Origin: Daphnia carinata
Taxonomy: Eukaryota; Arthropoda; Branchiopoda; Diplostraca; Daphniidae
DNA length: 64,000 bases
Direction of reading: 5' to 3'
Assembly (NCBI RefSeq): GCF_022539665.2
Contig: NC_081340.1
Coordinates: forward strand, 1,736,001 to 1,800,000
Part shown: piece after piece, positions 10,001 to 53,032 of the stretch
Numbering within the stretch: position 1 is the first letter of the stretch
How the letters are laid out: each line of letters starts with the position of its first letter
Made by a program: the position numbers and the translations under genes
The notes under the pieces: model-generated
Databases searched by the model: none
Told to the model about the DNA's origin: nothing
Seen by the model: the letters and a program-made list of their open reading frames with translations, nothing else

Positions 10001-12020
10001 TCCGGCAGCCGTGGCCTCCTTCCGACTCCAAAGGCCTGTCCGATGCATGCTGGACCGTGATGAAGACATGATGAGTACTGGAACTCGCCATCCTTTCCTG
10101 GCGCATTACAAAGTCGGTTTTGATTCAACGGGGAAAATAACAGCCCTCGATGTCCAACTATTCTCCAACGGGGGTAACACGATGGACTTGTCTCGCAGTA
10201 TTGTGGAACGGGCCGTCTTCCACATTGACAATGCTTACCACTTTGATCATTTACGTTGTCATGGTCTTGTGTGCCGGACGAATCTACCCTCAAACACAGC
10301 CTTCCGCGGTTTTGGTGGACCTCAAGGCATGGCCGTTATCGAAAATGTAATGACCGACGTAGCCACGTACCTCAACATGGATCCTACGACTGTACGATCG
10401 CTCAACTTGTACAGAGAGGGCGACGAAACTCATTACAATCAACGGCTCGAGTACTGCACGCTGGATCGCTGTTGGAGCGAATGCCAGGCGCTAGCTCGCA
10501 TGGACGAACGTCGGAAAGAAATAGACGATTTCAATCGAGCTCATCGGTTCAAGAAGCGTGGGATGGCTATGATTCCCACCAAGTTCGGCATCGCTTTCAC
10601 AGCGCTCTTTTTGAATCAAGCCGGAGCTTTAGTGCACGTCTAAAAAGACGGATCAGTGTTGTTGACTCACGGTGGAACTGAAATGGGCCAAGGATTGCAC
10701 ACGAAAATGCTTCAAGTGGCCAGCCGAGTGCTCAAAATTCCTGTCGAATTGATATTCATTTCGGAGACGTCGACAGATAAAGTCCCGAACACGTCACCGA
10801 CCGCAGCTAGCGCCGGATCTGACCTCAACGGAATGGCCGTCCTCGTACGTCAATTCGCGTTACTTGATTTGTTTATTCTTGAATTTTAGGATTTCCCTTA
10901 CTTTTGGAAATGATAGAATGCTTGTCAAATTCTAATGGACCGCCTGGCGCCCATTCGCAAAGCTAATCCAGATGGAACTTGGGAGCAATGGGTCCAGCAA
11001 GCATATTTTCAGCGCATCAGCCTCTCAACAACAGGCTTTTACAAGTAAAAAACGTGTGGTATGTTAATGTTTCCATATTACTGGCTTTAATAGTTCTTTT
11101 ATGGATTTTGATAGAACTCCAGATATCGGTTATGACTTTGTAACCAACAAAGGAACTCCGTTCCGCTACTTTACCTTCGGTGCAGCTTGCTCCGTTGTCG
11201 AAGTGGATTGCCTGACGGGCAACCACAGAGTATTGAGGACGGACATTGTAATGGATCTTGGAGAAAGCTTGAACCCAGCCATTGATATAGGTAAACTAGA
11301 ACAAAAATTAGCGTAGGTGTTTTACTTACAGAAATATTGTTTATCTCTTATTGGGTAAATTCAATTTTGCCTCACGTTTACTGCGAATCGACTTTCATTT
11401 TACTACGTGTCTCACTTAACAGTCTATTTATTTCCAATAAAAATACATGTTACATTTCGTATGTATTTATTTGATATTAGGCCAAGTCGAAGGTGGATTC
11501 GTTCAAGGGCTAGGCTTGTTCACTCTAGAAGAACCACTGTTTTCGCCGAGTAACGGCCAGATCATTACTCGTGGACCATCCAATTACAAGATACCGTCAG
11601 CTGATGACATTCCGGAAGAGTTTAATGTTTCTCTTCTACGGGGATGTCCTAATCCTCACGCCGTTTACTCTTCCAAAGTATGAATTTGCCTTTGATGTAG
11701 CTATCATTGTTGTCATATTGATTTTTTCTTTTTTTTTTTCAGGCGGTTGGAGAGCCGCCCTTATTTCTAGCAGCCAGTGTCTTTTTTGCGATTAAAGACG
11801 CCATCCACTCGGCTAGGACCGAAGCTGGCATCATTGGCAATTTCACTATAAACTCGCCGGCTACGTCTGAACGCATCCGCATGGCCTGCGAAGACGATCT
11901 GATTCGAAAGGTGATTTTCTTTTGAAATGTTTTTGGATGACTATTTACCTGTTTGTTTTCTACTCAAAGGTTTCAAAGCCTGTGTCTGGTTCTTTTCAAC
12001 CGTGGGCGACGTCGGTTTAG
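7074..12020 (+). CDS. XDH: Xanthine dehydrogenase/oxidase, with one in-frame TAA
   Basis: Oxidises hypoxanthine to xanthine and urate. Ten exons: 7074-7121, 7201-7258, 7337-7433, 7501-7772, 7939-10844, 10917-11044, 11115-11290, 11481-11677, 11743-11910 and 11970-12020; 1,366 codons before the stop, the family length. The N-terminal 2Fe-2S domains show [11 protein letters not shown] and, further on, QCGFCTPGF and [10 protein letters not shown]. The FAD domain has [17 protein letters not shown]-like and RREDDIA. The molybdopterin domain has [10 protein letters not shown] and FRGFGGPQG, whose Glu and Arg mark XDH rather than aldehyde oxidase, plus the catalytic [10 protein letters not shown]. 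The tail GSFQPW is also typical. Oddity: codon 1060 (10641-10643) is TAA where the family has Tyr, inside ALVHV[11 protein letters not shown]; the frame stays open and conserved for another 307 codons. So this is a nonsense allele, a very young pseudogene, or a sequence error. Confidence 0.93.
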
Positions 12021-13219
12021 TTCATACCCGACCAACGCCACCATAATCGATCTAGTACCCGTCCGATTCAGGCGTCCTGCGTGTCTTACGCATTGGTTTA
12101 TTTGGTATAGAGTTTATATACGCACAACAGCTGTACAATTTTTTATAGGTCTATGCGTTGCTCAATAATAGTGCAGTTTGTACGCGAATGTGTCAAGTAG
12201 ACATTTGACCTGAAGGAACCATATGCTTAAGAGAAAACTAATCCTCTTCTTAATCCTTTTGAGCAGCATCGGAGTGATGCTTAGAAAACAAAGGTAATGT
12301 AATATAATGTGTGGCTAAGCCGATGCCTTCTAATTGCCACCAGCAATTAGTCTAAAGAAGTTTTATTCTATTTCAACAGCAGCGGTAATATTGTCCATTT
12401 AAATCTTTTTACGTCTGTTTCAGTAACTATTGCGATTACCCTTGAGCAAATCCCGTTGTGTTAATTGTTAAAGAAAACCGAAGACGCATGAAAGAATTAT
12501 TGCTCAATGGTTGAGCACTCGTTATTCGTGGATTAATTATATTGGTTAAAGTAGACTATCTTATTTAGGATGTTTCCATTTGCTTTAACGAAACGACTAA
12601 ACAGCAGTCAAAGTAACGAGTTCAAGAAAAACAAATGGAATTTTTTGAATTTTATTTAGCTGACGAATCGGTTATTAAACTGACAGGACAGGGCCCTAGC
12701 ACAGCAGTAATCAAAAGAAATAATTTGGACAAAAAAGAATTGCCAGACAAATCGAATTATAATCAAACTTGTTTCTTTGCAGTTCATCTACAGTATTTAT
12801 CGATTCATTTATGAACAAAATCTCCGTTAGGGCAGCTGAAAGTCTGGCGACTAAGTAAATACGATCCATTTCCACGGTTGAAGAATTACTTTGAATGATT
12901 AAAAGAATTTTATGTTTTACTTGAATGTTTCAATACTCCAGCATTTCTCGAAGTACTTTTGGTGGACGGCATTTGCGCTCATAACGCCGAGGCTTGTATT
13001 GGTGTAATTTCCCAGTTTTAAAAAACAATACGGTATCAACGGATTTAGTTCACTGCGCATTCCGTTCAGTTTATTTTTCAGAATCAATCTCAGTTAGTTT
13101 AAATCAACGAAATGTTTGCGAATTAAGCAGTTGACACAAAAGACCCTTAGCACGGAGCTGCTTGAGCTCCGCACGTTAAGCTCCAAAGATGGCGTTGCGG
13201 CTGTTCAATGCCGAACCGC
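12021..13219. other. Intergenic stretch before the repeat cluster
   Basis: No gene recognised. The only structure noticed is a small hairpin at 12330-12350 (CTAATTGC, 5-base loop, GCAATTAG). Confidence 0.5.
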
Positions 13220-24489: not shown

Positions 24490-25827
24490 CCTGTATAACT
24501 CTTTCTCTGTGTAGTTTTAAATTTTAATAATTTAAAAAATTAAATACAAGTACTACAGTACCTTTGCCCAAGGATGGTATGCGGCATACGTACAACGCAC
24601 TGAAGCAAATGATACGACACCTGTTGCTGTCGAGTCAGATTGTTCTTATCTGCATTATCGATTTAGGAACTTGCCACTCTGTCAGTACGTAATTTATCTG
24701 TACGCTGATAAAGGCGATAATATCACTTTCTACATCCAAAATATATGGCCTTCACGAAAGATTCTCCTTCGACTTATCTACGAGAACACAATTTGTTGTT
24801 TGTCTTCTTTTGAGATTCAATAGAAATGCGTGTTTTTCACACAATAATGGGGTCAGTAAGGGGTGGAACCGAAGCGGCTATTTTGCTTTCTTACCACACC
24901 GCTCCGGTGGTGTCCTTGACGCAGGAAGTTGTTATTGATTCCAAATATGCTTGGCAAACGGGCCAACTCTTAAGTATACTTAGACTTAATAACACCCCCG
25001 TGCGCCACGCATGCCACCCTAGCTGTGTGGCACCAAAGCCCAACAGCCGCTTCGTTTTTACCCTTTCTTATTTCATTTGTCGTGAAAATTATCTATTGCC
25101 CAATGTGAGAAAAACGGGGGAGGAGCCAAGGCTGCAGGGCGTGCTTTTTGTTTTGGATAGAGCTCGCACAAAAGCCTTAATAACCATCAACATTTAACAA
25201 ATGTTAATAACATTCAACTTCTAACACCATAAATTCTAATTTCCGAACTACGTTTTTTTTCCATCTCTAGCCACATTTTCTAAAGAAAATTTTATGGATT
25301 ATTAAGTAACCCAGAATGCCGCAGTCAGAGATCGAGATTCGCAGTGTGTGGTGGCGTGGCGCTATAGATTTTTATTTGTTCCTCCCTTAAGTGGTGTTAT
25401 CTAATTTGTTCGAATATGGATTGCCACTTGATGGCGTTGCAGGTTCGTTCTAATTTACCCCAAATAAACGATGAACTCGGCAACAGAATTTGTCTATCAA
25501 AAAATGGATCAAGTGGCATTTCGTGCACCTTTACGATAGAACAAATCATTGTGTAATTGTTCTTTGTTGTCACGAGTAGCGCCGCTAGTGGGCATCGCAA
25601 AAACATCACTGTTTTCTCCTGAATGTGTAAAAGGCTAATTGTGCTGTTTTTTAATCATCGACGACTCACTACACTCATTCTCATTGGACAGCATTCAGTA
25701 CCAATCACCAACCACGAAAAACAACATTCTTTAACGTCGGGAACGTCGCCTACAAATTTGACGCCTTGTCTCTTCCGTGGTTAATCGCGCTCCATTTCCA
25801 AAATTCCCATGTTGTAGTCATATGATT

Positions 25828-26280
25828 ATGGATAATACCAGGCAAACAGCTCGCAAATCGACAGGTGGCAGCTTAGCCAGAAATCACGTGATTAACAAAA
25901 GAACAGCCCGAAAGAGCACTGCACAACAACATTCTCAAACGCCTAACAAACGTCCTAAGCAAACTCAGCAGTATGGTAGAGGATTACGTCATCTCTATCG
26001 TCCTGGTACTGTTGCCATGAGAAACATACGACGTTATCAAAATTCGACAAGGCTACTTATCCCTAAATTACCTTTCCAACGTCTTGTTCGTGATATCGCC
26101 AAAGAATTTAAGCTCAATTTGGCGTTCCAGAGTGCAGCTCTCGGGGCTTTGCACGAGGCAAGTGAGGCTTTCTTAGTGGGTCTTTTCGAAGACACCAACT
26201 TATGTGCAACTCATGCTCGCCGAGTGACCATCATGCCCAGAGATATCCAATTAGCCCGCCGAATTCGTGGTGAAAGATAG
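25828..26280 (+). CDS. Divergent histone H3 variant (intronless)
   Basis: About 150 residues. The start at 25828 ([14 protein letters not shown]) fits H3 best; two earlier in-frame ATGs (25777, 25822) would add 17 or 2 residues. The histone fold is well kept ([60 protein letters not shown]). The tail keeps ARKS at the K9/S10 site and a second ARKS matching K27/S28, but lacks K4 and K14, and a Gln/Asn/Pro-rich stretch replaces the K36 region, making the tail longer. Loop 1 has the normal H3 length, which argues against a CENP-A-type protein. The gene is intronless with a degenerate histone 3' stem-loop 52 bases past the stop. It may be a germline- or stage-specific H3 (inference). Confidence 0.85.
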
Positions 26281-27878: not shown

Positions 27879-29188
27879 TTAGTAGACTGCATTGTTGCCA
27901 TATCTAAAAGGATTCCTATTGTATCCACCATTCACGTTTGAGTAGGTATTGACTCCCTGTCCAGCACCGTAGGCTCCGTTCGTCATTCCACCGTAAGAAT
28001 TGCTACCGTAGTTTCCATAAGACGATCCACCGTAGTTTCCATAGGATGCCCCACCGTAGTTTTCATCATACAGCGAAGATGAACCCATTGGACCGGCGTA
28101 GGACGAGTAGGGGGAAGATGGAACGCCATAACTAACTCCACCATACGATCCAGCATTCATACCGTAGCTTCCAGGTCCGTAATTCGATCCACTGTAGCTG
28201 TTTCCATAGGAAGAGCCGAGCAGGTTCATGTTATTGCCATGCGCGGAATGGGGAAAAGCGCCATAGCTGCCGTAAGAGGATCCGACGTTATTTCCATAAG
28301 ATGGTGCGCCGTAGGCCGGAATGTTGTAGGAGGAGCCAGACCCGTATCCGTAAGCAGGGGTAACGCCGTAAGCAGGGGTAACGCCGTAAGCAGGGGTAAC
28401 GCCGTAAGCAGGGGTAACGCCGTAAGCAGGGGTAACGCCGTAAGCAGGGGTAACGCCGTAAGCAGGGGTAACGCCGTAAGATGAGCTTCCATAAGATGGG
28501 CCTGTGTAAGAAGATCCGACACCATAACTTCCAAATCCATAAGGTGTACCAGAGAGTCCCTGGTTAGCCGCACTATAGGAGGATCCGTAAGAGATTCCCG
28601 CATTGTAAGCTCCCTTCGTCCCGGATCCGTAATTACTAGCCGGCATGGCGTAAGAGGAGCCGCTGCCATAGTTTCCTGTTCCAGAATAAGCAGATCCGGA
28701 ATAAGCAGATCCGTAGTTTGTAATGGGTTTTGATGTAACGCCATAATCAGAAACGTATCCTCCATAACTCCGTCCGGAATATTCAATGCCATCTTTAAGA
28801 AACGTTAAAGGAAATTGATGCGTCAACACGTGATTCAGCTACAGAAGAATGAAACAAACTAAACACAAGAATAAAACTTTATCGAACCGCTGATGAGAGA
28901 ATCCATTTTCCCTTCGACGATTCCACCATTGTCAGAAATCGAATTACTTCCTGTATCAGAGCCCGGCTCCTTCAAATCCACAGCTACACTCGCCCCATTC
29001 GTTTGGGTAAACGTGACCAAAACTAACACCATTATCATCTATAAAAAAATTGAAAGTTGACATTACCGCAGAATAATATTTGTCGGACAAGACTTTGAAA
29101 AGAAATGCAATTGTAAATAGTAATGAATTCGCCTGATTATATTTACCGAAAGAAATTTCTGGAGGTTGTTCTGGATGTGTCGAGCCAT
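27879..29188 (-). CDS. Gly-Tyr-Ser-rich secreted structural-type protein, copy A
   Basis: Exons 29147-29188, 28888-29038 and 27879-28792, phase consistent, 368 residues. The first exon encodes MARHIQ...; the hydrophobic start of exon 2 (MIMVLVLVTF) then ends in NGASVAV, a likely signal-peptide cleavage region. The rest is low-complexity repeats of SYG, NYGS and GSSYG, including seven perfect VTPAYG units. Such Gly/Tyr-rich proteins are common in cuticle, silk, adhesive and shell matrices; the exact role here is unknown. A paralogue at 30469 shares the exon plan, promoter and C-terminal NN-x-VY ending. TATA and E-box motifs lie upstream. Confidence 0.75.
28351..28476 (-). repeat. 18-base coding minisatellite, seven perfect units
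   Basis: The unit TAAGCAGGGGTAACGCCG repeats seven times with no mismatch and encodes VTPAYG on the minus strand. The paralogue at 30469 has only about two diverged units at the same place. Confidence 0.92.
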
Positions 29189-30468: not shown

Positions 30469-31724
30469 TTAGTAAACTAGATTATTGCCATAACCAAGTG
30501 GATTCCTATTATATACGCCATTGATAGGTAAATGAGAATAAGGATTGATTCCTTGTCCAACGCCGTAAGCTCCATTCATCATTCCGCCGTAGGCACTGCC
30601 GCCGTAGTTTCCGAAAGAGGACCCATCATACGGGGAAGTTAAACCCCTTTACCCGGCGTATGATGACGAGTACAGAGGCGATGTAGTGCCATAACCAGCT
30701 CCACCATACGATCCAGCAATCATACCGTAGCTTCCGGATCCGTAATTCGATCCACTGTAGCCGTTTCCATAGGAAGAGGCCAGCATGTTGTTGCCATACG
30801 CGGAATGGGGAAAAGCGCCATAGCTGCCGTAAGAGGATCCCACGTTGTTACCATACGATGGTGGTGCACCATAGGCCGGAATATTGTAGGAGGAGCCAGA
30901 TCCGTATCCATAAGCAGGAGGGACGCCGTAAGCAGGAGTGACACCGTAAGATGAGCTGCCATAAGACGGTCCTGTGTAGGAAGATGCAACACCATAACTT
31001 CCAGATCCGGAGGCGATGCCGTAAGGACCCTGATTGGCTGCACCATAAGCAGAGTCGTAAGACATTCCCGTACTGTAAATTCCATTCGTTCCTGCTCCAC
31101 GGCTAATAACCGGCCTCGAGTATGGGAAACCGCTGTCGTAGTTTCCTGTTCCGGAATAGGCAGAACCAGAATAAGCAGATCCATAGTTTGAATAAGGTTT
31201 TGAAGTAACTCCATAGCCAGAACTGTATTCCCCATAACTCCGGCCGGAATATTCGTTAGCACCTTTAAGAAATATCGAGTAAAATCAATATGTAAGACAA
31301 TCAGTTTGCAATGGAAGTATGGAGCAGGTAGAACAGAAGCACATCAAATTCATACGTTTAAACACGATTCAATGACACTAGAATAAAACAGATAAAACAG
31401 AAGCATAAAATTTTATCGAACCACTGGTGCGAGGATCCAGTTTCTCGTCAACGAATCCGCTTGAAATCGAATCGTTGCCTGTTTCAGTGTTTGGCTCTTT
31501 CGAATCCACAGCTACACTTGCTCCATTTGTTTTGCTGAATGCGACAAAGAATAACGCTATTGCCACCTGAAAGCAAATCACAATTTTAAACATAATAATG
31601 TTTTATCATTCGAGACTTAGAAAAGCACTGAAAACATAATGGAATATTCAACTTAATAAGCAATTCGTTTGGATAGGTTTACCGGAGTGAGACATTGGAA
31701 GTGCATCTTATCGTGGCGAGCCAT
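30469..31724 (-). CDS. Gly-Tyr-Ser-rich secreted protein, copy B, with in-frame TAA
   Basis: Exons 31683-31724, 31422-31566 and 30469-31262. Exon 1 encodes MARHDKM...; exon 2 starts VAIALFFVAFSKTNGASVAV (signal-peptide end). Exon 3 is GYS-rich like copy A but with only two VTPAYG-like units. A TAA at 30649-30651 falls where copy A has a Pro codon. The following 59 codons remain in frame, keep GNYGG, AYGGMMNGAYG and YNRNP, and end in NNLVY like copy A. Hence a recent nonsense change, a variant, or readthrough; alternatively GTAAAG at this point acts as a splice donor. Confidence 0.65.
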
Positions 31725-35112: not shown

Positions 35113-36601
35113 TTAGTGAAAGAAATAGCATTGGATGGAAAGTACGCTCACAAGGAATAACGTTAAACACGATGAATCAACGATTGGTATGGCCGAATTC
35201 GGAATAGGAATACTCGTTTCTTCTGTTATCCAATTTACGTAGTTTCGAATGCGAGTGAACCCAGATGGCAGGCTGTTTTCACATCCCGCCGCCGCAAAGA
35301 AAGATGCAACTCCAATCTGAGTAAAACTTCCATCAGCGTTCATGTACCCCATAGGCCCACCGTTATCACTCTGCATACGTATATAATGAAAAGATTAGAC
35401 CAATGACCTTGTATATTTTTCTTATTCAAAAATCATACCGGACAGATTCCTCGACCTCCAGCTCCACTGCTGCAAATAATGTTGTCAGTCACGACATTCC
35501 CATAGGTTGCATAACATTCGGAATTGCTAATGACGGTAGTTGTCGTTTCTCGTAAAACTGGACTCAATGGTCCCACTGCTCCAGCTATGCAAAACAAAAA
35601 CACGTCAGGTTTAAAGGCGTGGCATTTAAATGATAATGGTGTTAGTAATTAACTTACAGCCTGAAGTTCTTCCCCACCCAGTAAGGTAAACAGTATCGCC
35701 ATTATGGTTAGGATCGTTGGTAGATGGTAAACAAATCGGTTTGATGTAAGCTATTATTTAAGGGTTTGTACAAAACTTGATTGAGTAATAGTTATTTAAC
35801 TTAAATGATTGATTACAGGTGAAGTTGACAGGGACGGGCAATTTGATGAGGGCGATGTCACCATTCAGAGTCTGAGCATTCCAACTGGGATGCTTTTTGT
35901 AATCGGTGGTAGTGAGCATGACTCTTTGCCATTCATTGGTAGCAGTTATATCGTGAGCACCAAGATAGACCTTGATTAACGACGCCCTAGTTATTGAAAA
36001 AGGAATATCAGGGAATATAATTTCAGAGGTAGAACTTGTGACGTCGAAAATCATGTTATGTCGTATGGGTACTAACCCATCAAGGCAGTTGGCCGCGGTT
36101 AAAATCCACTGATTGCTGATTAAGGTGCCACCGCAGACGTACTCTTCTAATACAGGCCAATCTTGTGAAATTTGCAAAAATGCCTGCCATGGGTATTCAT
36201 TAGGAGTGGCCACATTTCCTCCGGCAATCTTTCCCGCCAGTAACGGTTGGTTTTTCTTTCCACATGTTGCATCTTATTATTTTATCAAATAATAATGTTT
36301 ATTTTACATAGTATATGAAATAGTACGAAAAAACAAACCTCTAAGAAGTGGTGGGTTGGCCAATGGTGTCAGCACATTAGGCTGAAACAACGTAAAATTG
36401 CTGTATGTTCGTTCTTGGACAGCGCTCAAAGCTTGCTAAAATTGCATCACAATTGAAAATTAAATCTCGTGTTCAAAAACCGCGATAGAAAACAATGCTA
36501 GAGCTAAGTTATACTCAATTTATTACCTTATTGCCCGTCGCTAGTGAAACACACAATCCAAGAGCACTGGCTGCGAGACACAAGTAAAGAAAATTTTTCA
36601 T
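35113..36601 (-). CDS. Chymotrypsin-fold serine protease homologue, catalytically dead
   Basis: Exons 36527-36601, 36339-36435, 35817-36272, 35658-35750, 35439-35584 and 35113-35370; 374 residues. A signal peptide (MKNFLYLCLAAS...) and a 45-residue pro-region precede the protease domain, which starts KIAGGNVATPNEYPWQA. The catalytic His is Asn (LTAANC), the Asp is kept (GDIALIKL), and the Ser is Asn (CPSDNGGPM instead of the usual GDSGGP). The oxyanion Gly residues and the Cys framework (CGGTLI, TGWG) remain. It ends in a hydrophobic segment (LTLFLVSVLSIQ) that could be a GPI-anchor signal or membrane tail. Such homologues act as cofactors or regulators in arthropod immune and clotting cascades. 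TATA at 36661. Confidence 0.85.
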
Positions 36602-39697: not shown

Positions 39698-40157
39698 ATG
39701 TGGCACTCGGTAGGTCAAACTGTATCAGGTGTACATCCGATAGTGATAAGAATTTTATCACATGTTGCGCTGTACATCTCTACATTTTCAAAGATTCCCT
39801 TCAATTTGATTTGAATATTCCGTTGACCATCCATTTTGCTTTTTTCATTGCGCTTGTCTTTTGAGAAATATTTTCTGTCTTGCATTACGCATTATGTTAC
39901 AAAGAATCAAAACTGCTATAATTTCAATGTTACCTACTGTATCAAGAAATGTATTACTGAAAACTGATTTCGTTTTTCATTCCTATTTTTAGAATTGATG
40001 GATTTCAAACATTCTTCCCATCAAACCAGATTTGCGCCAGTTAGATGTGTATTTTTTCCCTATTTAAAACTTAAAAGCTACACCCTAAATATTTGAAAGA
40101 AATTTGAAAGAGAACATTAATGTCGGGAAAGAGTTCAAAGACGAGTCGATTTACGCT
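39698..40157. other. Gap between convergent zinc-finger and CPxG-globin genes
   Basis: Both neighbours end here. No gene seen. Confidence 0.6.
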
Positions 40158-40604
40158 TTAACGAGACTTGCGAATAGCAACGTCGCAAGCTCTCAAACCA
40201 TCTTTCCAGGCTTTTCTGGCTTCGGTGGAAAACAATTGTCCAAGCTCTTCCTCCATGACATTGAACATGACTTCACCAAATAATTTAAGCTCGTCGGGTT
40301 TCACGTCTTTGAAGGCGGGCGAGTTGAGGTAAGGACAGCTTTTCGGGTTTTTGCCCAGGTTGTCAATGTATGCATTGAGGCCGGCCAGGCAGGTATACGC
40401 TTGATTCAAGAAGTGATTGTTGGTGGGCAAATCAGCCAGATCGACGTCAGCAAAAGCGGCAAACTTCTTTTGGGTTTCGGGTTTCAGTTTGAAGTAACGG
40501 ATGAACGCTTTTGGTGCAATGTTTCCATTTTTCTTGGCGACTTTCCAGGTGGCCTTGATCAAAGCACGATCTTCGTCCTTCATCGAGTATTCACGTGTTT
40601 GAGG
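40158..40604 (-). CDS. Last exon: globin-fold domain without proximal histidine
   Basis: 148 residues. Helix A has LIKATWKVAKK with the invariant Trp, CD1 Phe lies in KKFAAFADVD, helix E is FLNQAYTCLAGLNAYIDNL, and the G/H region has VKPDELKLFGEVMF and ARKAWKDGL. Aligned on the V-x-P that follows helix F, the F8 position is Ser, and no His occurs between NNHF and the end. The E7 position aligns with Gln. A CPY motif sits at SCPYL just before helix F. Canonical His-ligated heme binding therefore looks lost. Confidence 0.75.
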   Translation of the reverse strand, partial: PQTREYSMKDEDRALIKATWKVAKKNGNIAPKAFIRYFKLKPETQKKFAAFADVDLADLPTNNHFLNQAYTCLAGLNAYIDNLGKNPKSCPYLNSPAFKDVKPDELKLFGEVMFNVMEEELGQLFSTEARKAWKDGLRACDVAIRKSR

Positions 40605-43600
40605 CTGAAAAAACAGTGAAAGTTTATGATGTTATTGTTTGAAATGTATCGATTCTGGTGCTGTGTACCATGACGGTATGATGGCCGTAAGGGCATTTGA
40701 CTCCCTGCTGACTGTATGGGCATTTAGATCCTTTTCTAATGTAAGGGCATTTTGATCCAACCTTAGAGTGATGGTAACTGGATGATGGTTTCTATGCAAA
40801 GATTAACGATTTGTATTAGATTTTGTTTCATACATTTAATGCCAATAATAAATGTGTTTACCTGGATTCCGAGAGGACAGCCGTTGGCGGATTTCTTAGG
40901 GGAAAAAAAGGCAAACGATCGTATGGAAATTTATTTCGATCATTTAGAGTGTTAATAGTTACCTTGAAGCCATGAGGACAACCACTAGCTGAAGCATCGT
41001 TACGCTGTATTACAAAAATAAATCAATGTCATCATGTTAATTATTTTGGGTACTAAAAATGAATTACCGTGTATCCGTAAGGGCATTTGCTTCCGGCAAC
41101 CATTTGTTTCTGTCATAAACGAAAGGTACGCTTATTACTTTGAACGATTGGTAAATGAAAAAAGTATGGGGTTCACCTTAATTCCAAATGGACAGCCATG
41201 ACCAGAACCTGAAGACTATACGATTTATGAACAAATAAATAAATGATGGAATGTTATTACAGGTAAAGTAAATTCAGAATCATCTTGACTGCATGACCTA
41301 CCCCAAAACCTAAGGGGCACTTGCCATCGGTTGATTGAGCGACCTAAAAATATTGAAAATATGATTAGTATACTCATGACTGGAGCGTGTTATCTTATTT
41401 GACTCACCGAGAATCCGAAGGGGCATTTCGAGCCTTCGACCAATCCTCGCTGAAATTCATATACGTCAGTTTAAATTTGCATCATAGTTAATTTACGCCT
41501 TTTTAATACCTTGAGCCCCAATGGGCATCCACCAGCATTTTTCTGTTAACACAAAAAACCATTTTTTTTTAGATTTGGGAAACGCTAACGCGAATGATGC
41601 CGTTAATTTTATACCTTGAATCCGTAAGGACAACCTGATGCAGCAGCTGCTTCTCTCTGTGATGAATAAAATCCAGCAATTAGTTTTTTTTTTCTTAAAA
41701 CGAAACTTGCTCTAGTGATCTAAACTTACAGTATATCCATAGGGGCATGAGGTTCCTTCCACCGATTGTTTCTATTTCAATTAAAACATTTAAAATATTT
41801 TCATACGAAACATAAAGTACCAGTATCTTCCTTCGTTTATACTATACCTTGAGTCCTAGAGGGCATCCCTTTCCGGAACCAGTTCCCTATAATATCGGAA
41901 ATAATCACATATTTGAATAAGTTGATTTCTTTTTTTCTAAAAAAAAACTAAGGTGTTGCTAAACTCACTTGGAAGCCGAGCGGGCATTTACCATCGGTGG
42001 CCGCATCTCTCTGTTAGATAGCCAACAAGTTATTTTAACTATAATTAAAATAATTTGGTTTAAATTGTAAAGGAATTGGCTCACCGTGTAACCAAAGGGA
42101 CACTTCGATCCTTCCACTAGTCCTTTCTGTAGTCCAGTTGATATAGGGTAGTTCATTAAATATTTTGACGTGATACAATCAAAAAGAAAAAAAAGAGAAT
42201 AGTGAAATAGAATGATTTACCTTAACACCAAGTGGGCATCCAGAATCAGATTTCTATTCAATAAAAAACACAAACAATTTAGTAAATTTGAGCATACTGA
42301 TCAGCTTGAATTTTTATTACAGTCCAGCCTAATTTTACCTTGAAATTGAGGGGACATCCAGGTTTGATTGCCGATGCCTGCGTCAAAGGTATATGGTTAT
42401 CACTTTCCTTTCACGTTTGGTTAGATTGAAGTGACAACTATTACAAAAACAAATTTTACTCACAGAATAGCCAAACGGGCAACGTGTGCCTTCCGTTGAC
42501 GATTGCTGGAAAATTAAAGAAAATACAGTTTAGTTAATAGCTTCATTATTATCGTTAAAGAGTTACTGAAAATCTTACCTTGAAGCCAAATGGGCACGGT
42601 TCGCCAGATCCGGTCTTCTATGATATTCAAAAGCAACGTGCGAAAATAAGAGTAAGTGCGATACATTCAAAAGAACGTTTTAAACAATGAAAATTTACGT
42701 TGAATCCGTAAGGGCAGTTTCCGTCATTGAATCCAGATTTCTGTTTCATGTAACAATTTCAATGAATGTTTTAAAATTCAATTTTTGACAAATTTAGAAA
42801 TAGTTAATCATCTACTAACCGGGTATCTGTAGGGACATCTGCTCTTGCTCTTGTAGCTGACTAATTTCTATAAAAGAAATGAGAAACAAAATCAAATGTT
42901 AGATGCTATGAAATCACGTTAAGATGATTTAAATTACCGAGTGGCTGTATGGGCATTTATGGGCAGCATCAGTTGGTTTCTAAATGTAAACAAACATTGT
43001 GATCCCTATAACTAAAAAGATTCACTATATTATCGACTTACGCTGAAGCCGTAAGGGCATCCAGAATCAGATTTCTGTAGGAAAAGAAACAAATGTTTAG
43101 TATGCAAAGTTGAAATTCGATTTTCTTCACTTTAACGCATACCTTGAAGCCATGCGGACATCCGTTTGTTGCAACATCACTTGGCTGTCAGAAAAAGAAA
43201 TGAAAACCGCTTAAAAATCATCAATTCAATATAAAATATTTTTTGGGTGAGAAATCATACGCCATATCCGTAGGGACATTTGCTTCCGGCAACCATTTGT
43301 TTCTAATAAAGAAAATAAAATCAATGAGATTCAAATGTCAAGTATTGAAGTAACTGCAATTTTTTACCTTCAGACCGTAGGGGCAGCCGTTACCAGAACC
43401 AGTTGGCTATTAACAACGAATATTAGTTTAAAAAATAGTCAGTTAGATATCACACAATTAATATGATGGCTGTAAATCACCTTGTATCCAAAAGGGCATT
43501 TGCCGTCATTAGCCTCTTCAAACTGTGCGAAAATGTGTTTCAATGTGTTGTAAATATAATGCCCATATTTTTGTTTCACGTTATTAACTTACAGTTCCGC

Positions 43601-46600
43601 CGTAGGGGCATTTCGATCCAGCAACGAGTCCCTTCTGAAAAAAAGAAATGATTCGTAGAATTAAATGATATAAAAAGTTAGTTGTTAAATGTCATATTCG
43701 TTAACAAATACCTTGATTCCTAGTGGGCATCCGGAAACGCCCTTTTTAAAGTTATGGGGACAACCTGGCGCAGCTGCGTCTTCTCGCTAAAATATGCAAA
43801 ATTAAGTTTTTGTCTGTCAACATAATTATATTTAAAGTGTAAGTTTACAGTGTATCCGAACGGGCATTGAGATCCTTCAACCAACTGACGCTGTACAAGG
43901 AAATGAACAAAAGATTCGTAACTGTTAGTGACAGCGAATGAAGTAGTTACACAAGTTTAATTAGTTGCGTACCTTGAAGCCTAAAGGACAACCTTTTCCG
44001 GTTGCGACTCCCTGAAAATGAATGATAATCCAAAACATGAAAGATTACAGACTAGAAATAGGAAAAAAAAAATTTGGAAGTTGGCCGTACAGAAAATCCA
44101 GCAGGACATTTGCCATCACCGATGGATTCCTTCTATAAATTAAAAATAATAAAAATATATTAGTGTTAGAGTTAAACGATTTAGATAGAAGTTTAGTGAC
44201 CTTGTATCCGAAGGGGCATTTTGATCCTTCGACGAGTCCTTTCTAGAAATTCACGAATCAAAAAGCAAACATATTTAGACAATGAATCACAAATCTTCTA
44301 GATGTACTCTGAATTACCTTAACACCCAATGGGCATCCTTTATCGGATTTCTAGTAAACAATAAAACATTGTAGTTTAACTAAACTCTATACAATATTCT
44401 TTAATTCACTGTGTTTGTGGCTTTGGTCTGTATTCTTTGCGAATGAAATATGTTACCTTAAAACCATAGGGACAGCCTGATTTTGAAGCCAAAGCATTCT
44501 AAAATTTAAGAAAAAGATAAATTAATATTTTTCTAATTTTCGTGAATGCTTAAAAACAGAACGGAATTCGGACGTGTTAGTAACAGACTCACATTATATC
44601 CGAATGGGCATTTTGTTCCCGCAACGGTAGATTGCTATTCCGGATCCAAAAAATTAATTAATAGTTAATATTCAAATGTATAATATTCGTAACATTGATC
44701 GGTTCCGCTGGTTTTACCTTAAAACCCCATGGACAACCAGCACCAGACCCCGTTTTCTATATGAAAATAAGGAGAAAAACGAAAGCATTTTTAGACATAA
44801 GATTATTTATAAGTTGCGCTACGTGAACATACCTTAAATCCGTGGGGACAAACTCCATCGTTGAAACCAGATTTCTGTTGGAATAAAAAGAGTAGATTAA
44901 TAGCTACTCCGATACTATTTAATATTTTTGGCACGTTTTGTTGAAATTTAAATATGAAATACTAACCGGATATCCATATGGACATTTGCTCATTTTCGAT
45001 CGGATGCCGGAGGATTTCTAAAATTCATTGAATGACGTTGTTGTAATAATGAGTCTAAAGGGATGTGATTGAAAAGAAGGTAAAATTACCATGTAGCCGT
45101 AAGGGCATTTAGTGAACGGAGCAACAGCTTTCTATTTGATTTAATAAATGAATAATAATTGAACGCTTGAAATTTCGTAGTTGGGGTGTAGGCGTAAAAC
45201 GATTCTCACGTTAAAGCCATAAGGGCATCCAGCACCATTAGCAGATTTCTTCATTTGAAGAAAAAAAAATTTATGTCAAATTTTATGAATTCATAGGAGA
45301 AAATAATTGCTATGAATACCTTGAAACCGTGTGGACAACCTTGAGCGATGGCCTTCTGTAAAATGTGAAAATTGCAAATAAGGTTAGAATCATTTTCATT
45401 TTCAATATAACAATGACAAACGTACGCTGAATCCATATGGGCATTTGGTGCCAGCAATTTGTTGTTTCTTTAAAATTCATTCAAAACACGAATTTAAGTG
45501 ATAATTATTTTAGGACTTGAGTTCTCTGTTGGCACATACTTTAATTCCAAATGGACATCCTTTTCCGAAACCGCTAGCCTATATATAAAACAAAAATCAT
45601 TCGAAACTGAGTGTTAAAGAGGCAAGGAATAAAAGATAAATACCTTAAAACCTAATGGACAAACGCCATCTTCAGCAGCTTCTCTCTACGTGCAAAATAA
45701 AAATCGAAATATTTCAGAATTAATGTGTTTTAGAAACGATTTAATTCGAATATTACAGTTCCGCCGTAGGGACACTTGGATCCTGCAACCAGTCCTTTCT
45801 GTATTATAAAACAAATTGTTTTTTAAAATGTTAAATACGGATGAATTATGAAGGTAGGCGGTTTACCTTGATACCAAGTGGACATCCTGTTGCATTTTTC
45901 TGCATCATCAAACAAGTAAAATCGACGAAATAATAAAGAAATTTAATTACACTGATTAGGGAAACGGTTCTACCTTGAAACCGAATGGGCAGCCATTCGC
46001 AATTGCATCGAGAGCCTACAGACAAATTCAGATAAGTGGTTGGCTATTATTAGATGTAGGGGATATGGTTTTACACTTACAGTGTATCCAAAGGGGCACT
46101 TAGATCCGTCCACTTGATTGCGCTGCGGCCACACGTAAAAATGTATAAATGTGAACAGAATGAGCAGTTATTTCAAATTTAAAATGAATACCTTGAAGCC
46201 AATTGGGCATCCATTTCCAGTAGAAACTCCCTACAAAGATAGCCAGTTTAAAACGATTGAAAACATCAATTAACTGGCAATGACACTTACGGAGAAACCA
46301 GCTGGGCATTTTCCGTCTCCAATCGCCTCTTTCTAATTATTATAAAAAGGGGATGTCAATAAGCTTCATTGTATCTGTAATGATTTTCAAATGCGAATAG
46401 ATTCTAATTACCTTGTATCCGTAAGGGCATTTGGATCCTTCAACTTCTTGTTTCTAAAAAAAAAAACGGATCAATTGAATAAATCAATTAACAATATCTG
46501 AATTCTTTCGAGCGGAAGGGAAATGTGGTAAACTCGATGGCTGGATTCATACCTTGATGCCGAGAGGGCATCCTTGGCTTGATTTCTGAAATATCAAATA

Positions 46601-47572
46601 GATCAAAAGGTTAGCACATTGGCTATTAATAATGCATGGTAAGCTAAAAACTAGTATAATACCTCAAAGTTGTAAGGGCATCCGGATTTTGATGCAAAAT
46701 CTCTCTATAACGAATAAAAGACGAAATGTCAGTGGTTGATGTCTTACTGAATGAATAATCATTACTTACAGTATATCCGAATGGACATTTCGTTCCGCTT
46801 ACCGATGATTGCTATAGACGTACAAAGGGAAACATATTCAAATGATCATCAGTAGACCAAATGTTAAGACAAATACGACATAGAGTATCAGAAGGTCCAG
46901 CATGTTAATAAATAAAACTATTGAACAAAAAAACAGACCTTATTGAATCCCCATGGGCATCCACTTCCAGGATCGTTATTCTGCAAAACATTGATTGAAT
47001 CAACATTTAAAAAAAAATTGCACTGTGAGCATGATAAAAACAATAATTCACCTTAAAGCCGTGAGGACATTGTCCATCGTTGAATCCCGATTTCTGACGT
47101 ATGATAAAACACACATGCATTGTGAATCGAATTTTTATTAATAAAATCAAAAATCTTTACCGGATATCCGTAAGGACACTTGCTCATGCTTCTGGAACCA
47201 ACGGATTTCTTTATTTTCAAAAACAAACAAAATAAAAATAAAAAAAAATAAAAAATTAAAAAAAAAATACGTTGAATTCTATTTCTTATTAATTATTGCT
47301 TAAAACTTACCGAATATCCGTAAGGGCATCCTGCACCCTTTTCAACTCCTCCAATGGCACCATGGCCCTAAATTATTTAAAGAAAATCACATTTCACTCG
47401 TAACGTATTTCAAGAAGATGCCATAAGAATAAAAATACAAAAAATTTATAAATCTCACATGATGAGGATTAGCCCCGGAACGATGACTGTAGGGGCAGTT
47501 ATGGGCGTTCCCAATCGCTGCCAGGCAGACAGCAATCAAAATGAGAATTTTCGCAATGCTCATGGCGTTCAT
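40158..47572 (-). CDS. Secreted CPxG micro-exon-array protein with C-terminal globin-fold domain
   Basis: Fifty-nine exons, all phase 0, give a protein of about 1,001 residues. Exon 1 (47459-47572) is a signal peptide (MNAMSIAKILILIAV..., cleavage probably after GNA) followed by NCPYSH. Exons 2-57 are micro-exons of 33-57 bases (one of 75), each encoding a variable start and then CPxG, for example KGLVEGSKCPFGYT. Introns are about 60-130 bases. Exon 58 (40669-40791) has three CPY motifs and a His-rich start. Exon 59 is a globin domain. About 62 Cys-Pro pairs in all, normally one Cys per repeat, so disulfides within a repeat are not possible. CP dipeptides are the core of heme-regulatory motifs in other proteins, which together with the globin suggests heme handling; that is inference. 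No known family was recognised for the array. The strict exon-repeat correspondence and hierarchical order are described in the findings. Confidence 0.85.
40669..42867 (-). repeat. Third 18-19-exon higher-order block of the CPxG array
   Basis: It starts with the exon ending SKSRCPYRYP (42820-42867), then three 6-exon modules. Each module runs: ..DGxCP, GSGxxCP, a Q-S/M-V-xGTxCP-type exon, a longer GCPxxFK exon, a short 11-residue GCPLGxK exon, and G-LVEGSKCPFGY. The last module ends in the enlarged exon 58. Confidence 0.75.
42938..45017 (-). repeat. Second higher-order block of the CPxG array
   Basis: It starts with the exon ending SKMSKCPYGYP (44967-45017), followed by KSGFNDGVCPHGFK and the same module order. 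It ends with KPTDAAHKCPYSHS (42938-42979), whose CPYSH resembles the signal-peptide exon. It includes the fused exon at 43712-43786. Confidence 0.75.
43712..43786 (-). CDS. Fused micro-exon carrying two CP repeats
   Basis: 75 bases, 25 codons: REDAAAPGCPHNFK joined directly to KGVSGCPLGIK. In the other modules these two repeats are separate exons with an intron at exactly this K|K border, so one intron has been precisely lost here. Confidence 0.8.
45090..47208 (-). repeat. First higher-order block of the CPxG array
   Basis: It starts with KSVGSRSMSKCPYGYP (47161-47208) then KSGFNDGQCPHGFK, and follows the same 6-exon module order. It ends with KAVAPFTKCPYGYM (45090-45131). Confidence 0.75.
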
Positions 47573-47665
47573 TCAAAATTAACTTTTCAAAAAATTCTTC
47601 CAATTCGTGGTTGGATGGTCTCTTGTAGTCGGACCAATATCTGAAGCTACACATCTTCATTTTCG

Positions 47666-47674
47666 CTTTATATA
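47666..47674 (-). promoter_or_regulatory. TATA box of the CPxG-globin gene
   Basis: TATATAAAG about 95 bases upstream of the ATG, within a G/C-rich flank (GGCCGGG). No hypoxia-response cluster was noticed nearby. Confidence 0.5.
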
Positions 47675-49644
47675 CCCGGCCCGCCTCTCTCTCCAAAAAT
47701 GCACAGTCGAAACTGTATTTCCACATCATCTTCGGCAGCCAATCTAAGAAATCGATCGGTCAAGTTTTCGAGTATCCTGTTGAGTCGTTATTTGTCTAGA
47801 GGCTTCGGATGGATGTTTGTCTAAAGCAACTGATAAAAACTGATGGTACGCCTTCTTCTTTTTTTTCTTTTTTTGCTTTCTGTGATTTCTTTCAAATGTT
47901 TCGAGAGGATGTACTAAAGCAAGTAATCGTTTTCTTACGACGCACATTTCTTTTTCTGTGCCACCAATCGTTTTGCAACGGGGCAGTCCACCAGTCCACC
48001 ACCGCTTATATAACTAAACTATCAAAATGAATTCATTTTAATGTTGCCATTCATATTTAAAGTGGCAACCCCCCATTGCGTTCCTTTGTTTTTAAATACA
48101 AGTTAGGGAATTGCAAAAATATTAAATAGGCCTACTTTTTATAAATCATGGGCTATTGGAAAAGCAAACATTGCTAAATAAACTATGAAAGGATGATTAC
48201 CCATTAATTAATAAGCCGGATCTCGTTGGCTTTCCGTTGGTTGTTCTCGAAAGGCGTGGGTCAACGCTATCGCGCCAAAGTTTATCTCGTCCTTGCCCAG
48301 TTAAGTTTCGTCAGAACAGCTGTTGTCCTCTGTAACCTACAAGGAATTTGAGCTATTTTTTTTAAAACTTTAAAAACAAATAAATACATTTTCTGTTTTG
48401 TAGAAGAAGACGAAAAAAGTGTCATGACAAGTACGACGTCACATGCAGTAAATGCGTCTTAGAAATGTAGCTCAATCATCGCCCCAACTAAACAAGTTAG
48501 CTCGTGGTTTCTGAAGAATATTTATCAGAACTATTCTAAAGAAAATTGAAGCAGTTGTCTATGGAACGAGAGTTAAGAAATGATTCAGCAAAATGAAACT
48601 CCCAATACGCCTTCGTTCATGATTGCTTCACCGATACGTATTCGTCTATCTTATGTTTTAAGCAAAGGATAAAGGTCATGGGAAGATAAATAACGGAATT
48701 AAATCTAAGTCTTACCGACAAATGTAGCGAACTTATATAACACAAAATGAAAATGTGTGGTCCTTAATTTAGTTCTGGCATTCAGATGTTTGCTGCATCC
48801 AGGGTGGAATAGGACATTTGATTTCACTCAATTTAAGTCTAAGAATTGACCCAGAACAAGCCAATCTCTTTCCACTGAGTGATTCGAACCTATAACGATG
48901 TGAATCCCCAACGTTTTATGTGACAGACGGGTTGGTTGACAAATACATCTTGGTCAGATGTCTACACAAAAACAGGGCTAACGGCTAAGAACCGAATTTA
49001 GCCCAGCGTTCTAATTAATTTGAAGTGCATGCTAAATTTTATAACTAGAGAACTAAATACATTGAAATTTGGTAACCGCCAGAGGCCCATAAACGGACAA
49101 CCAGCACCAAAAATGTGATATCAATTACATTTCCTCTTTCATATATTGAATGAATTTGGTAGTAATGCAGTTTGATTTAAGATGATATTTCTCATATCTG
49201 GGGAGGAGGTACTCATTATGAATACACCCTTTGTACTATGAGAAGCATTTTTACCGTTTGTAAGATTTAGAATATCCATGGACTCGAACCACTGACTTTC
49301 ACCGCCTCACGCCAAGGTGTTAACCACAATGCCATGGCATTACCGTAATACACTCGCCAAGCAAACGTTTTGTTTCTCGATAATATTGTATGTCTCCTGG
49401 AAAAATTCAGTGAATATGTAATTATTTATGCAAGCTGACATTTCGTATCATTCTCATTTTCATTCATAGCAAATAAATTGATGAACATAGACTTATAGAA
49501 CTAACGAAATTACAGAAATGTAATACGGCATGCATCTATAAATGCCATAATAGGCCGAAACGGATGGCACAAAACTACAACGAGAAGAATGATTAATCGA
49601 AAACATACCTTCCCAAAAATTATGACCTGTCTTTTATTTTAGTT
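47675..49644. other. Intergenic stretch upstream of the CPxG-globin gene
   Basis: About 2 kb without a recognisable protein gene. It contains one tRNA-like relic at 49272-49340. It is the shared flank of the CPxG-globin gene (start side) and the HAAO gene (end side). Confidence 0.5.
49272..49340 (-). pseudogene. Degenerate tRNA-like sequence
   Basis: The minus strand shows GGCATTGTGGTTAACACC (A-box-like) and GTGGTTCGAGTCC (B box), with acceptor ends that pair poorly. Probably a tRNA pseudogene. Confidence 0.4.
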
Positions 49645-50817
49645 TCAAAGAAGCTTCTCCATATTATTCTTTGGCGTTGGCATGGCAACAGACATGATCA
49701 AACAGGTATCCAACTGGCGCGTCAGCTTGAACGCTTCTCCTGACGGAACGAGAAGGCTGTCGTCGGTTTTGAGAGTTATTTCTTTGCCATTTACAGTAAC
49801 AGATGATTCTCCTTCCTGTGTACAAATGGAGTGAATCGAATTTGCAATAAAAGAAAAAACAGCAAATATTTTTTTAAATATTACCAATTGCCACAACCAT
49901 GTTTCATAGGTGGTGGCTTGAAAGTCATCGATTCCTTTGCCATAAACAACAATGTCCGATTGATAATTAATGTTGTCAAACAGCTTCTTTTTGCCTTCTT
50001 TCTGGATTTCAGCTCGGTGTAACGCAAGCCAGCCTTTCAAGTCGAAAGGGTTTTCCACCTCTCGGTTGGAATCTGGTTTGTAAGGCGGATTCTCCGGAAT
50101 AGTTCCCGGAATAGGACGGCCCGTTCGGCATTGTTCCGATGCAAAAAATTCTTTGATGACGGGCACTAGCTGAACACCTAGATCGTCGCAATAGAACCAT
50201 TTTTCAAAAAGCCCTTCGGTTGAGTCGTTCACAAAATATCTGAAAAGGCAAAATTCCCTCAACTGTCAGCGAGTGATTTTTTTCCAAACAAAAGGAAGGC
50301 TGGAAACAATTCAATCACCTCAGGCAGTCTAGTTCATGTGTAGCTCTTTCTCTTTCAATGACCAATCCAATGGTATCCTCTTTCCTTTGAGGTGAATGTG
50401 GAATTTTTCCCGGCAATAGAAATATCTTGTGTAAAATGAAAAAAACATGAGAAAACTTGTGTGAAGAAAACGTCGAAAATGGGGATTTCCGGCACCAACA
50501 ATTTGTATTTCTTACCTCACCCTCTTGAATGGGGACTGTTTTAAACTTCCCTTTTTCTTGTATAATTAACTCCATTGCTCCCTTTTTCATGTAAAATAAT
50601 TCCTCGCCTTCTTCCAGGTGGAAATCTTTACGTTGGTTGGGCCCTCCGACGAAGAAAACTTTCAATTGCTGTTCATGCCTGTACAAATGGAAACTGACAC
50701 TAGTTTTATGGCAATCACATCATGGTTGACTTACATGAGTTTGTTGCAAACAGGCGGCAAGAAAAAGTCTTTATTTTCCTCAATCCACTCATTAATGTTA
50801 TAACACTCGGCCGCCAT
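49645..50817 (-). CDS. HAAO: 3-hydroxyanthranilate 3,4-dioxygenase
   Basis: Kynurenine-pathway enzyme that opens the ring of 3-hydroxyanthranilate to give the quinolinate/NAD precursor; cytosolic, Fe(II)-dependent cupin. Exons 50735-50817, 50516-50678, 50319-50425, 49885-50239 and 49645-49815; 292 residues against 286 in human. Motifs: [30 protein letters not shown] (His and Glu iron ligands) and [10 protein letters not shown] (third His). Then [23 protein letters not shown] and the C-terminal cupin half [13 protein letters not shown]. As in other animals, the bacterial rubredoxin-like second metal site is absent. All residues expected for activity are present. Confidence 0.96.
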
Positions 50818-51445: not shown

Positions 51446-53032
51446 ATGGGATTCGAACGTTTTGAGATCGTGTTGGAGAACCGTAATGGGATTTTTTACC
51501 CAGGTCAAACTATTATCGGTGTTGTCCACGTATCAAATGCCAAAAGTGAAACTATAAGAGGTAATTATTTAGATATAATATTAATTTTTAAAAATGCGTA
51601 TAAAAAGGTAATTGGAGTGCTCTCCAAAAGGTATTCAAGTTGATTGCAGTGGAGTGGCAGAAGTTCGTATCCCAGGGAAAGATGCGAAAAACACTTACAA
51701 TTCGACAGGATGTGACTTTTACTGCGCGAGAGAACAATATTTCGATTTCAAATTCTCACTAGTCAATCCAGGTAAACGTGAAATGAAAACAGTAAAAATA
51801 TCAACAGGAAAACAATTGAGAACATCATGTTGTGCTTTCTTAGGGCAGCATGCTGTCGAATTGGCGGCAGGTCACCATCAATATCCGTTCACCTTCGTTC
51901 TGCCAACGCAGATCCCTCCGTCGTTCGAAGGACCTTACGGCCATATTCGCTATAATATTCAAGCTGTCGCCCAGCGTACTTGGCTAAAGCGAGAATACGT
52001 TTGCAACAGCAATCTGACTGTCAATGCAATCGTCGATCTCAATACCATGCCCAAGACAGAGGTATAACTTCTATAAATGTTTACTAGTGAATTAAAAAAA
52101 AAAATTACTCATAAAATGAAATTCCATATAGCTACCAGTAAAAAAAATCAAGTCAAAAACACTTGGTTTATTATGTTGCAAATCGGCCCCCATTTCTGCA
52201 CAAGCGCAGATCGAACGCGCTGGCTACGTACCGGGAGAAACGATCATTTTGCACGCACATACCGATAACGAGAGTGGTATATCGATGCGAGGTTCTAAAG
52301 CTCAACTTGTTCAGGTTGGTTACGCATTATAAGGTGCTTTATTCGTCATCAATGCATTTTAATGGCGGCTGGCGGTTGCAGATTACCAAGTTTATCGCTG
52401 AAGGGCAAACGAACTGCGAATCTAAAGTCCTAAAAGCTTACATTCACGAAAGCTTTATTGAAACTGATGTTATGGATAACGTAAAATTCGTTGTTCCTCA
52501 AGTACCACCTTCTACCCTGCCGTTTTGCGGAATCATGGATATATCATACCAAGTTCAAGTGAGCCGTTTGATTTTAAAAACAAACATGTTTTATTGATAA
52601 TTTTATCATGAAACGATAGTATAGATTTCAAATTTTCATCTTAAATGAAGTGTTCTAGGAAACAGTTCATTTTTTACAAAGTTACGTTATAAGTAACGTT
52701 TACTTTTTTTTATGGGTAAATAGTATATAGTTGACCCTGGTACTTTGTCGATTAACGTGACCATCAACCTTGATCTGGTGATCGGTACGATCCCACTCCG
52801 TTCTCATACGGTCCCAAGCACAACCACAGTGTCAAATAACTCCGTACCTATTCTTGATCATTGGACGATCCCTGACGTCCGTGGAAGTGAATGGGTTCGC
52901 CCGTCTGCTCGTAAGTTGTGTAGTTGCATTGCAATCTATTTTGCTTACAATTAAAAATTTTATTATTTTACTCTTTTACGGCTAGCTCCACCGAGTTACG
53001 AAGAAATTGTTCAAGTCGGAGACGCACGATAG
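51446..53032 (+). CDS. Arrestin-domain-containing protein with C-terminal PPxY
   Basis: Alpha-arrestin, about 355 residues. Exons 51446-51560, 51631-51771, 51844-52061, 52132-52314, 52382-52558, 52724-52910 and 52986-53032. N-terminal arrestin domain: FEIVLENRNGIFYPGQTIIG and YPFTFVLPTQIPPSFEG. C-terminal arrestin domain: LGLLCCKSAPISA then AGYVPGETIIL and PSTLPFCGIMDISYQV. It ends in PPPSYEEIV, a PPxY motif that binds WW domains of Nedd4-type ubiquitin ligases; family members act as adaptors for ubiquitination of membrane cargo. The 72-base intron 51772-51843 is a multiple of three and stop-free, so its retention would add 24 residues. It is convergent with the next gene, with 312 bases between stops. 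Confidence 0.9.

Follow-up and report, generated by a model that had tools for sequence, protein, structure and literature searches.

Among described systems, the closest to the gene considered here are the branchiopod monodomain HbL globins, which in Daphnia pulex carry Val (HbB) or Tyr (HbC, E, F and K) at helix position F8, and whose binding of oxygen is doubted in passages of PMC7457136. Passages of PMC2678976 describe an eight-gene hemoglobin (Hb) cluster for the same species, and those of PMC10526429 describe schistosome micro-exon genes (MEGs), which encode secreted proteins from very short exons, of 3-81 bp. The locus analysed here comes from Daphnia carinata (GCF_022539665.2), contig NC_081340.1, positions 1,736,001-1,800,000 of the forward strand, a stretch of 64,000 nt that is called the window throughout. 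Its minus strand carries a gene predicted to encode a signal peptide, an array of Cys-Pro (CP) repeats, nearly each in its own micro-exon, and a C-terminal globin domain: a branchiopod-type monodomain globin, which is a known kind, carrying a micro-exon CP array of which no description was found in the open-licence literature searched. To our knowledge, no globin occurs among the MEGs. The likeness lies in the short exons, 56 of the 59 measuring 33-75 nt in phase 0, and in a signal peptide judged by eye, whereas MEG introns reach 5 kb (PMC10526429, in the passages used) and those of this gene span 60-127 bp, with a mean of 76. The predicted gene consists of the following parts.

47667..47674, minus strand: TATA-box-like TATATAAA 5' of the gene, read from the sequence
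47459..47572, minus strand: exon 1, with its ATG at 47572 or 47563, the signal peptide, one CP and the first mature motif, HNCPYSH; the N termini of two relatives (P0022 and P0023) are similar
40862..47367, minus strand: exons 2-57, 56 phase-0 micro-exons of 33-75 nt, from sequence, shuffle control, periods and selection
45090..47208, minus strand: super-block 1, exons 3-21 (units 3-21), from the 19-unit spacing
42938..45017, minus strand: super-block 2, exons 22-39 (units 22-40), from the 19-unit spacing
40862..42867, minus strand: super-block 3, exons 40-57 (units 41-58), one unit short, from the 19-unit spacing
43712..43786, minus strand: exon 32, 75 nt, two units (42 + 33 nt) in frame, from the gene model
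40669..40791, minus strand: exon 58, 123 nt, three CP (CPYI, CPYS, CPYG) and a His-containing linker
40158..40604, minus strand: exon 59, globin, 148 amino acids and stop, from Pfam, alignments and AlphaFold2

Exons were assembled by enumerating open stretches with an in-frame CP between AG and GT. The resulting model has 59 exons, ends at 40158 and starts at 47563 or at an in-frame ATG upstream of it, 47572, which is where the initial annotation had placed the end of the gene. Every exon length is divisible by three and every intron is in phase 0; all 58 donors are GT and all 58 acceptors AG (29 TAG, 25 CAG, 4 AAG), the exon 58 donor, GTACAC, having been picked among three weak donors listed. 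The micro-exons measure 33 nt (seven), 36 (one), 39 (ten), 42 (33) and 48 (two), with 51, 57 and 75 nt found once each. The predicted product of the whole gene is a chain of 998 amino acids, with an isoelectric point of 9.4, rich in Gly, Lys and Ser, and containing 65 Cys, 62 CP and 53 CPxG; Pro follows every Cys but three, of which the signal peptide has one and the globin has two. The signal peptide, MSIAKILILIAVCLAAIGNA, is followed by HNCPYS, and was judged by eye, as were those of P0022 and P0023. Hence the order proposed initially, of signal peptide, micro-exon array and globin, is borne out by the gene model, and the estimate of about 62 CP dipeptides proved exact. The description of 56 one-motif micro-exons holds for their number and for 55 of them, but exon 32 carries two CP, and is consistent with a clean loss of an intron inside the array.

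The array is far outside what chance produces. Counting as a unit any AG-[open, phase 0, CPxG]-GT stretch, the interval 40000-47700 contains 53 on the gene strand versus none on the opposite strand, the remaining 56.3 kb of the window contains one (at 12834, TFSCPNGDF), and 200 dinucleotide shuffles gave a mean of 0.03 and a maximum of 1. A strict repeat pattern had 15 matches across the 108 Mb genome, every one within this gene, and its reversed control matched nowhere in the same 108 Mb, although a second array that had diverged could escape so strict a pattern. When P0023 was searched against the genome, all 23 matches were globin stretches and this gene's own array was missed too; hence that search cannot exclude a second array, and the pattern search is the better evidence. 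Twelve extra DNA matches of the gene's 5' part were discarded, as all fell in query positions 295-362, the A/T-rich stretch 47211-47278.

The units also record how the array may have grown. Similarity among 61 units peaks at spacings of 3, 6, 19 and 38 (z 3.3, 6.7, 14.1 and 6.9; 1000 permutations), with further peaks six units to either side of 19, at 13 (z 4.1) and 25 (z 5.8). Growth would have passed from unit to trimer to hexamer, and thence to a block of 19 units, which occurs in three copies, the last of them lacking one unit. Exons 19 units apart share 0.696 of their DNA (33 pairs), against 0.578 for 435 equal-length pairs whose spacing is not divisible by 3, whereas the introns following those exons are no more alike (0.540, 33 pairs) than 312 other intron pairs (0.547). 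Differences concentrate in third codon positions, at 0.19/0.15/0.54 by position between blocks 1 and 2 (177 codons) and 0.21/0.21/0.56 between blocks 2 and 3 (187 codons); the corresponding Nei-Gojobori (NG86) nonsynonymous distances (dN) are 0.20 and 0.24, and the synonymous ones (dS) 2.1 and 3.3, which are saturated. Alike exons, unlike introns and third-position differences therefore point to old duplications under constraint at the protein level. As the micro-exons are phase 0 at both ends, skipping or unit duplication can alter the length of the chain and leave its frame intact. By every sequence test made, this gene is real, conserved and unusual.

Relatives uphold the initial claim that array and globin form one chain. 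P0022 (483 amino acids, from a contig of 1826 bp) and P0023 (479, from 1556 bp) each combine a signal peptide, 19 CP motifs and a globin in one open frame, and P0019 (234 amino acids, partial) has seven CP motifs and a globin in a single, likewise uninterrupted, frame. The contigs behind P0022 and P0023, both of source 'lgn', may derive from RNA or DNA, and array and globin are one chain either way. Of the 22 related proteins P0002-P0023, these three alone contain both parts, the other 19 being globin exons or short open reading frames (ORFs) that are uninformative on the array. Unit periods of 3 and 6 recur in P0022 (z 2.7 and 5.8) and are weak in P0023 (z 1.8 and 1.9).

A shorter version of the gene exists within the same genome. 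The paralog L030 (C8:4434620-4435182), joined by hand, has a signal peptide and ECPRGYK, with the exon ending after GYK at a phase-0 donor, followed by a globin with 53% identity over the best stretch and Tyr at F8. The chains differ in how many motifs precede the globin, from one in this paralog through 19 in P0022 and P0023 to 61 in the window gene. L030 is a likely picture, judging by its sequence, of the gene before expansion, and the final coding segment of an exon like this one may have been the seed of the array. Four further monodomain globins, at C8:5304140, C8:5305603, C6:2427021 and C6:2469969, have Cys at E11 and E[RQ]CP near helix F, with Tyr at F8 in three and His in one; the search for a CPxG exon near these four covered loci of ~3.2 kb.

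The C-terminal domain is, from its sequence, a globin fold without a proximal histidine. It scores 50.6 bits against Pfam PF00042 (cut-off 22), and the solved structures closest to it among the matches listed are heme globins, hemoglobins and myoglobins included. AlphaFold2, with a 21-row alignment (A1), agrees with the Globin profile in giving a myoglobin fold, at a mean predicted local distance difference test score (pLDDT) of 86.8. Phe48 and Phe51 are invariant in 21 sequences, and the former, which we take to be CD1 from myoglobin numbering, supplies the expected Phe. The pocket itself is altered, with Gln68 at E7, Cys72 at E11, a CP at Cys90 and Val101 at F8; a phmmer alignment to fish myoglobin instead places Pro96 at F8, and neither is His. 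The sole His of the domain is H64, at position E3. The helix F region is modelled as helical only at 87-89, a three-residue turn, and at 96-99, a four-residue helix, although confidence is lower here, the blocks that make up residues 81-100 averaging 76-78. The step from globin to heme that underlay the initial annotation is therefore weakened, by the single His at E3, by an F8 residue that is never His in the array clade, and by a helix F that is largely lost in the AlphaFold2 model.

Several of these substitutions recur in related globins. In the array clade, defined as the window globin plus P0002-P0023, with the array itself observed in four of these 23, F8 is Val, Ile, Leu or Met in all 23; of five further monodomain paralogs, four have Tyr there and one (C6:2427021) has His. 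By contrast, all eight didomain Hb pieces compared, taken from six loci (L009, L012, L013, L014, L016 and L017) with the genome's other globin loci left out, have His at F8. The 28 monodomain globins all have Cys at E11, where the didomain pieces have Ile or Val (8/8), and all have the CP-position Cys near helix F, which is absent from all eight didomain pieces; the Pro following that Cys is kept in 27 of 28, P0005 having CH. In a tree of ~75 residues per sequence, containing no D. pulex sequence, the 28 form a clade apart from the didomain Hb (support 0.81). Gln at E7 is common ground, as the Daphnia-type didomain hemoglobins of this genome (the globin cluster on C9, and C6:2841303) have it in 8/8 pieces. 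In the passages of PMC7457136, D. pulex HbB similarly combines a replaced E7 His, printed 'His > Glu', with Val at F8, and the Gln of the window globin is probably the same replacement; other D. pulex monodomain HbL, like four of the five further monodomain globins here, have Tyr at F8. Hence the family, which had initially gone unrecognised, is probably in its globin part the branchiopod monodomain HbL, with orthology judged from sequence, while the array does stand apart, as section 16 and the passages of that account mention neither an N-terminal CP array nor micro-exons.

The explanation favoured here, ahead of heme, is that the secreted product forms a flexible scaffold of thiols, with a non-heme globin to carry it, to which a tentative probability of about 0.4 is attached on the sequence evidence. 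The chain would be flexible and comb-like, with a single cysteine displayed at each CPxG turn. Once secreted, a product having 64 mature Cys is likely to meet an oxidising environment, where its CP thiols may form disulfides. Bonds of this kind in the extracellular space would link adjacent repeats as well as separate chains and so build a multivalent, cross-linked scaffold. The globin would have abandoned its heme pocket and, as a descendant of secreted hemoglobins, would now serve in docking or assembly, perhaps stapled by a predicted disulfide between Cys E11 (Cys72) and the CP-Cys (Cys90). In its favour, each mature Cys ahead of the globin has Pro after it, Gly stands at +3 in 53 of the 60 CP units of exons 2-58, F8 is never His in the array clade, Cys E11 and the CP-position Cys are invariant among the monodomain globins, and AlphaFold2 finds no confident structure in residues 1-343 of P0022 (pLDDT <50, mostly ~30). 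The mature Cys number 21 in P0022, 23 in P0023 and 3 in the C8 paralog, and so not all can pair within one chain.

Several observations weigh against this scaffold. Firstly, the window gene's own count of mature Cys, 64, is even. Secondly, the cleavage sites behind the odd counts were placed by eye, and the paralog's gene model was moreover built by hand. Thirdly, the AlphaFold2 alignment for P0022 was thin, with seven rows of which three had any array, and hence its low pLDDT may mean a lack of data. Fourthly, cross-linking alone does not explain the strictness with which Pro follows Cys, and P0023 has one array Cys without it.

The capture or delivery of heme, the role proposed initially, is a serious if doubtful rival. 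The CP motifs would serve as thiolate ligands of the heme-regulatory type, such that the chain would soak up heme or porphyrin at many sites, and the globin would be either the acceptor or a partner of hemolymph hemoglobin. Pro follows all 61 mature Cys ahead of the globin, and among the 60 CP units of exons 2-58 the +2 residue is hydrophobic, aromatic or His in every case (Y/F/L/I/W/H/A). The unit 9-mers are slightly positive, with a mean net charge of +0.28, and the globin keeps its CP near the lost F8 in 27 of 28. The heme regulatory motif proteins ALAS, HO-2 and HAP1 share the Cys-Pro dipeptide, and the consensus of their motif is a basic residue or Asn before CP and a hydrophobic one after. 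The pattern [KRN]CP[hydrophobic or K] fits 25 of the 60 units, and the window chain differs from these proteins in being predicted to be extracellular and in its 62 copies, with CPxG[FY]. The globin lacks a proximal His, and secreted thiols generally tend toward oxidation. CP peptides do bind Fe(III)-heme, mostly as five-coordinate complexes with Pro bending the chain, according to passages of PMC10377097, in the reference list of which HO-2 also appears. About 87% of known CP heme motifs have aliphatic residues N-terminal of the Cys (same passages), whereas A, I, L or V is found among the four residues before it in 25 of the 60 units, although the span counted there may differ from the four residues used here. 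Capture of heme or metal by CP may still apply, the units agreeing in part with the contexts of known CP motifs.

A related reading, which seems unlikely on present sequences, is that the ligand changed rather than being lost, such that a CP thiolate, and not histidine, works in both the globin and the tail of a secreted heme- or redox-handling chain. The F8 His would have been lost, in 27 of the 28 monodomain globins, while the Cys near helix F and Cys E11 became invariant, and the CP motif would then have been multiplied to more than 60 copies by micro-exon duplication.

Binding of soft metals is likewise unlikely. Here the secreted array would hold Zn, Cu or Cd in a reservoir of thiols, with several repeats to each ion, and the 61 mature CP cysteines ahead of the globin speak for this. 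Metallothioneins have clustered CxC and CxxC, while the Cys of this array are spaced 9-26 apart, mostly 11-14, with neither CxC nor CxxC. Residues 117-134 of P0022 resemble the zinc-ribbon family TIGR02443 at 30.1 bits, below the cut-off of 49.45, and P0023 has no NCBIfam match.

An antistasin-derived protease inhibitor, in which the array would block serine proteases, is improbable. Pfam has no family for the repeat except Antistasin (PF02822), which the full chain matches at 46.3 bits (cut-off 21.2) over seven stretches, and the CPxG[FY] of the units does resemble the antistasin core, in a CP[YF]G[FY]K-like form, with a ten-residue gap to the next GCP at some junctions. The match was lost in two shuffles of the 815-residue array in which the five-residue cores were kept, and hence the match owes something to the residues and spacing that surround them, CPFGFKKNATGCP being an example; two of three shuffles were scanned, using the array without the globin, whereas the 46.3 bits came from the full chain. 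True antistasin domains are encoded elsewhere in the genome, at C10:2107970-2110908 and C5:3350431-3350805. However, the best of the seven stretches takes in a core of 14 residues, at positions 10-23 of a 26-position profile, and each unit has one Cys, or one in every 11-17 residues across exons 3-57, against six in an antistasin domain of ~26 residues. P0022, P0023 and P0019 score 16.2, 15.8 and 7.4 bits, all below the cut-off. An antistasin origin has some appeal, but membership was not accepted. One of the two antistasin-domain genes shares a contig with the array gene.

That the array is an artefact or pseudogene, whether micro-exons arisen by chance or a tandem duplication that decayed next to an ordinary monodomain globin, is barely credible, against 53 units where 200 shuffles reached 1 at most, codons conserved beside unlike introns, and the unbroken array-globin ORFs of relatives.

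One further protein resembles the array. P0001 (568 amino acids, jgi source) was the sole match of a full-length search, in which scoring was limited to the 7992 candidates with the most words in common; its E value is 5.7e-14, at 28% identity over 57%. It has 23 CP motifs (CPYGYDKM, CPFYxxxMP and others) in two long repeats, and no globin. No Pfam family exceeded its cut-off in P0001, no relative of it was confirmed in the viral collection, and it had no match in this genome, in a search without a positive control whose blank shows little. Considered first as a distant relative, P0001 may owe its likeness to convergence.

Four neighbours in the window were identified by Pfam, and no heme theme is evident among them.

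7899-10640, plus strand: aldehyde oxidase/xanthine dehydrogenase
35761-36273, minus strand: trypsin-like gene
49648-50265, minus strand: 3-hydroxyanthranilate dioxygenase
51612-52064, plus strand: arrestin

The window also contains a core histone on the plus strand at 25762-26277 (Pfam Histone, 129 bits), by eye a divergent H3/CENP-A-like protein with a long basic tail. Two adjacent Gly-Tyr-rich repeat ORFs lie on the minus strand, at 27882-28838 and 30652-31284, neither with a Pfam match; the first includes 7.4 identical 18-bp repeats at 28348-28480.

In this gene, a domain of hemoglobin lineage has been joined to a very long array in which nearly each unit is its own exon, and the length of which differs widely among relatives. 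If confirmed, it would provide a test case for what a globin does after losing its heme ligand, and for whether serial CP motifs bind heme, metal or each other. It would equally be a test case for the splicing of more than 50 consecutive exons, mostly of 33-42 nt, across introns of ~76 bp.

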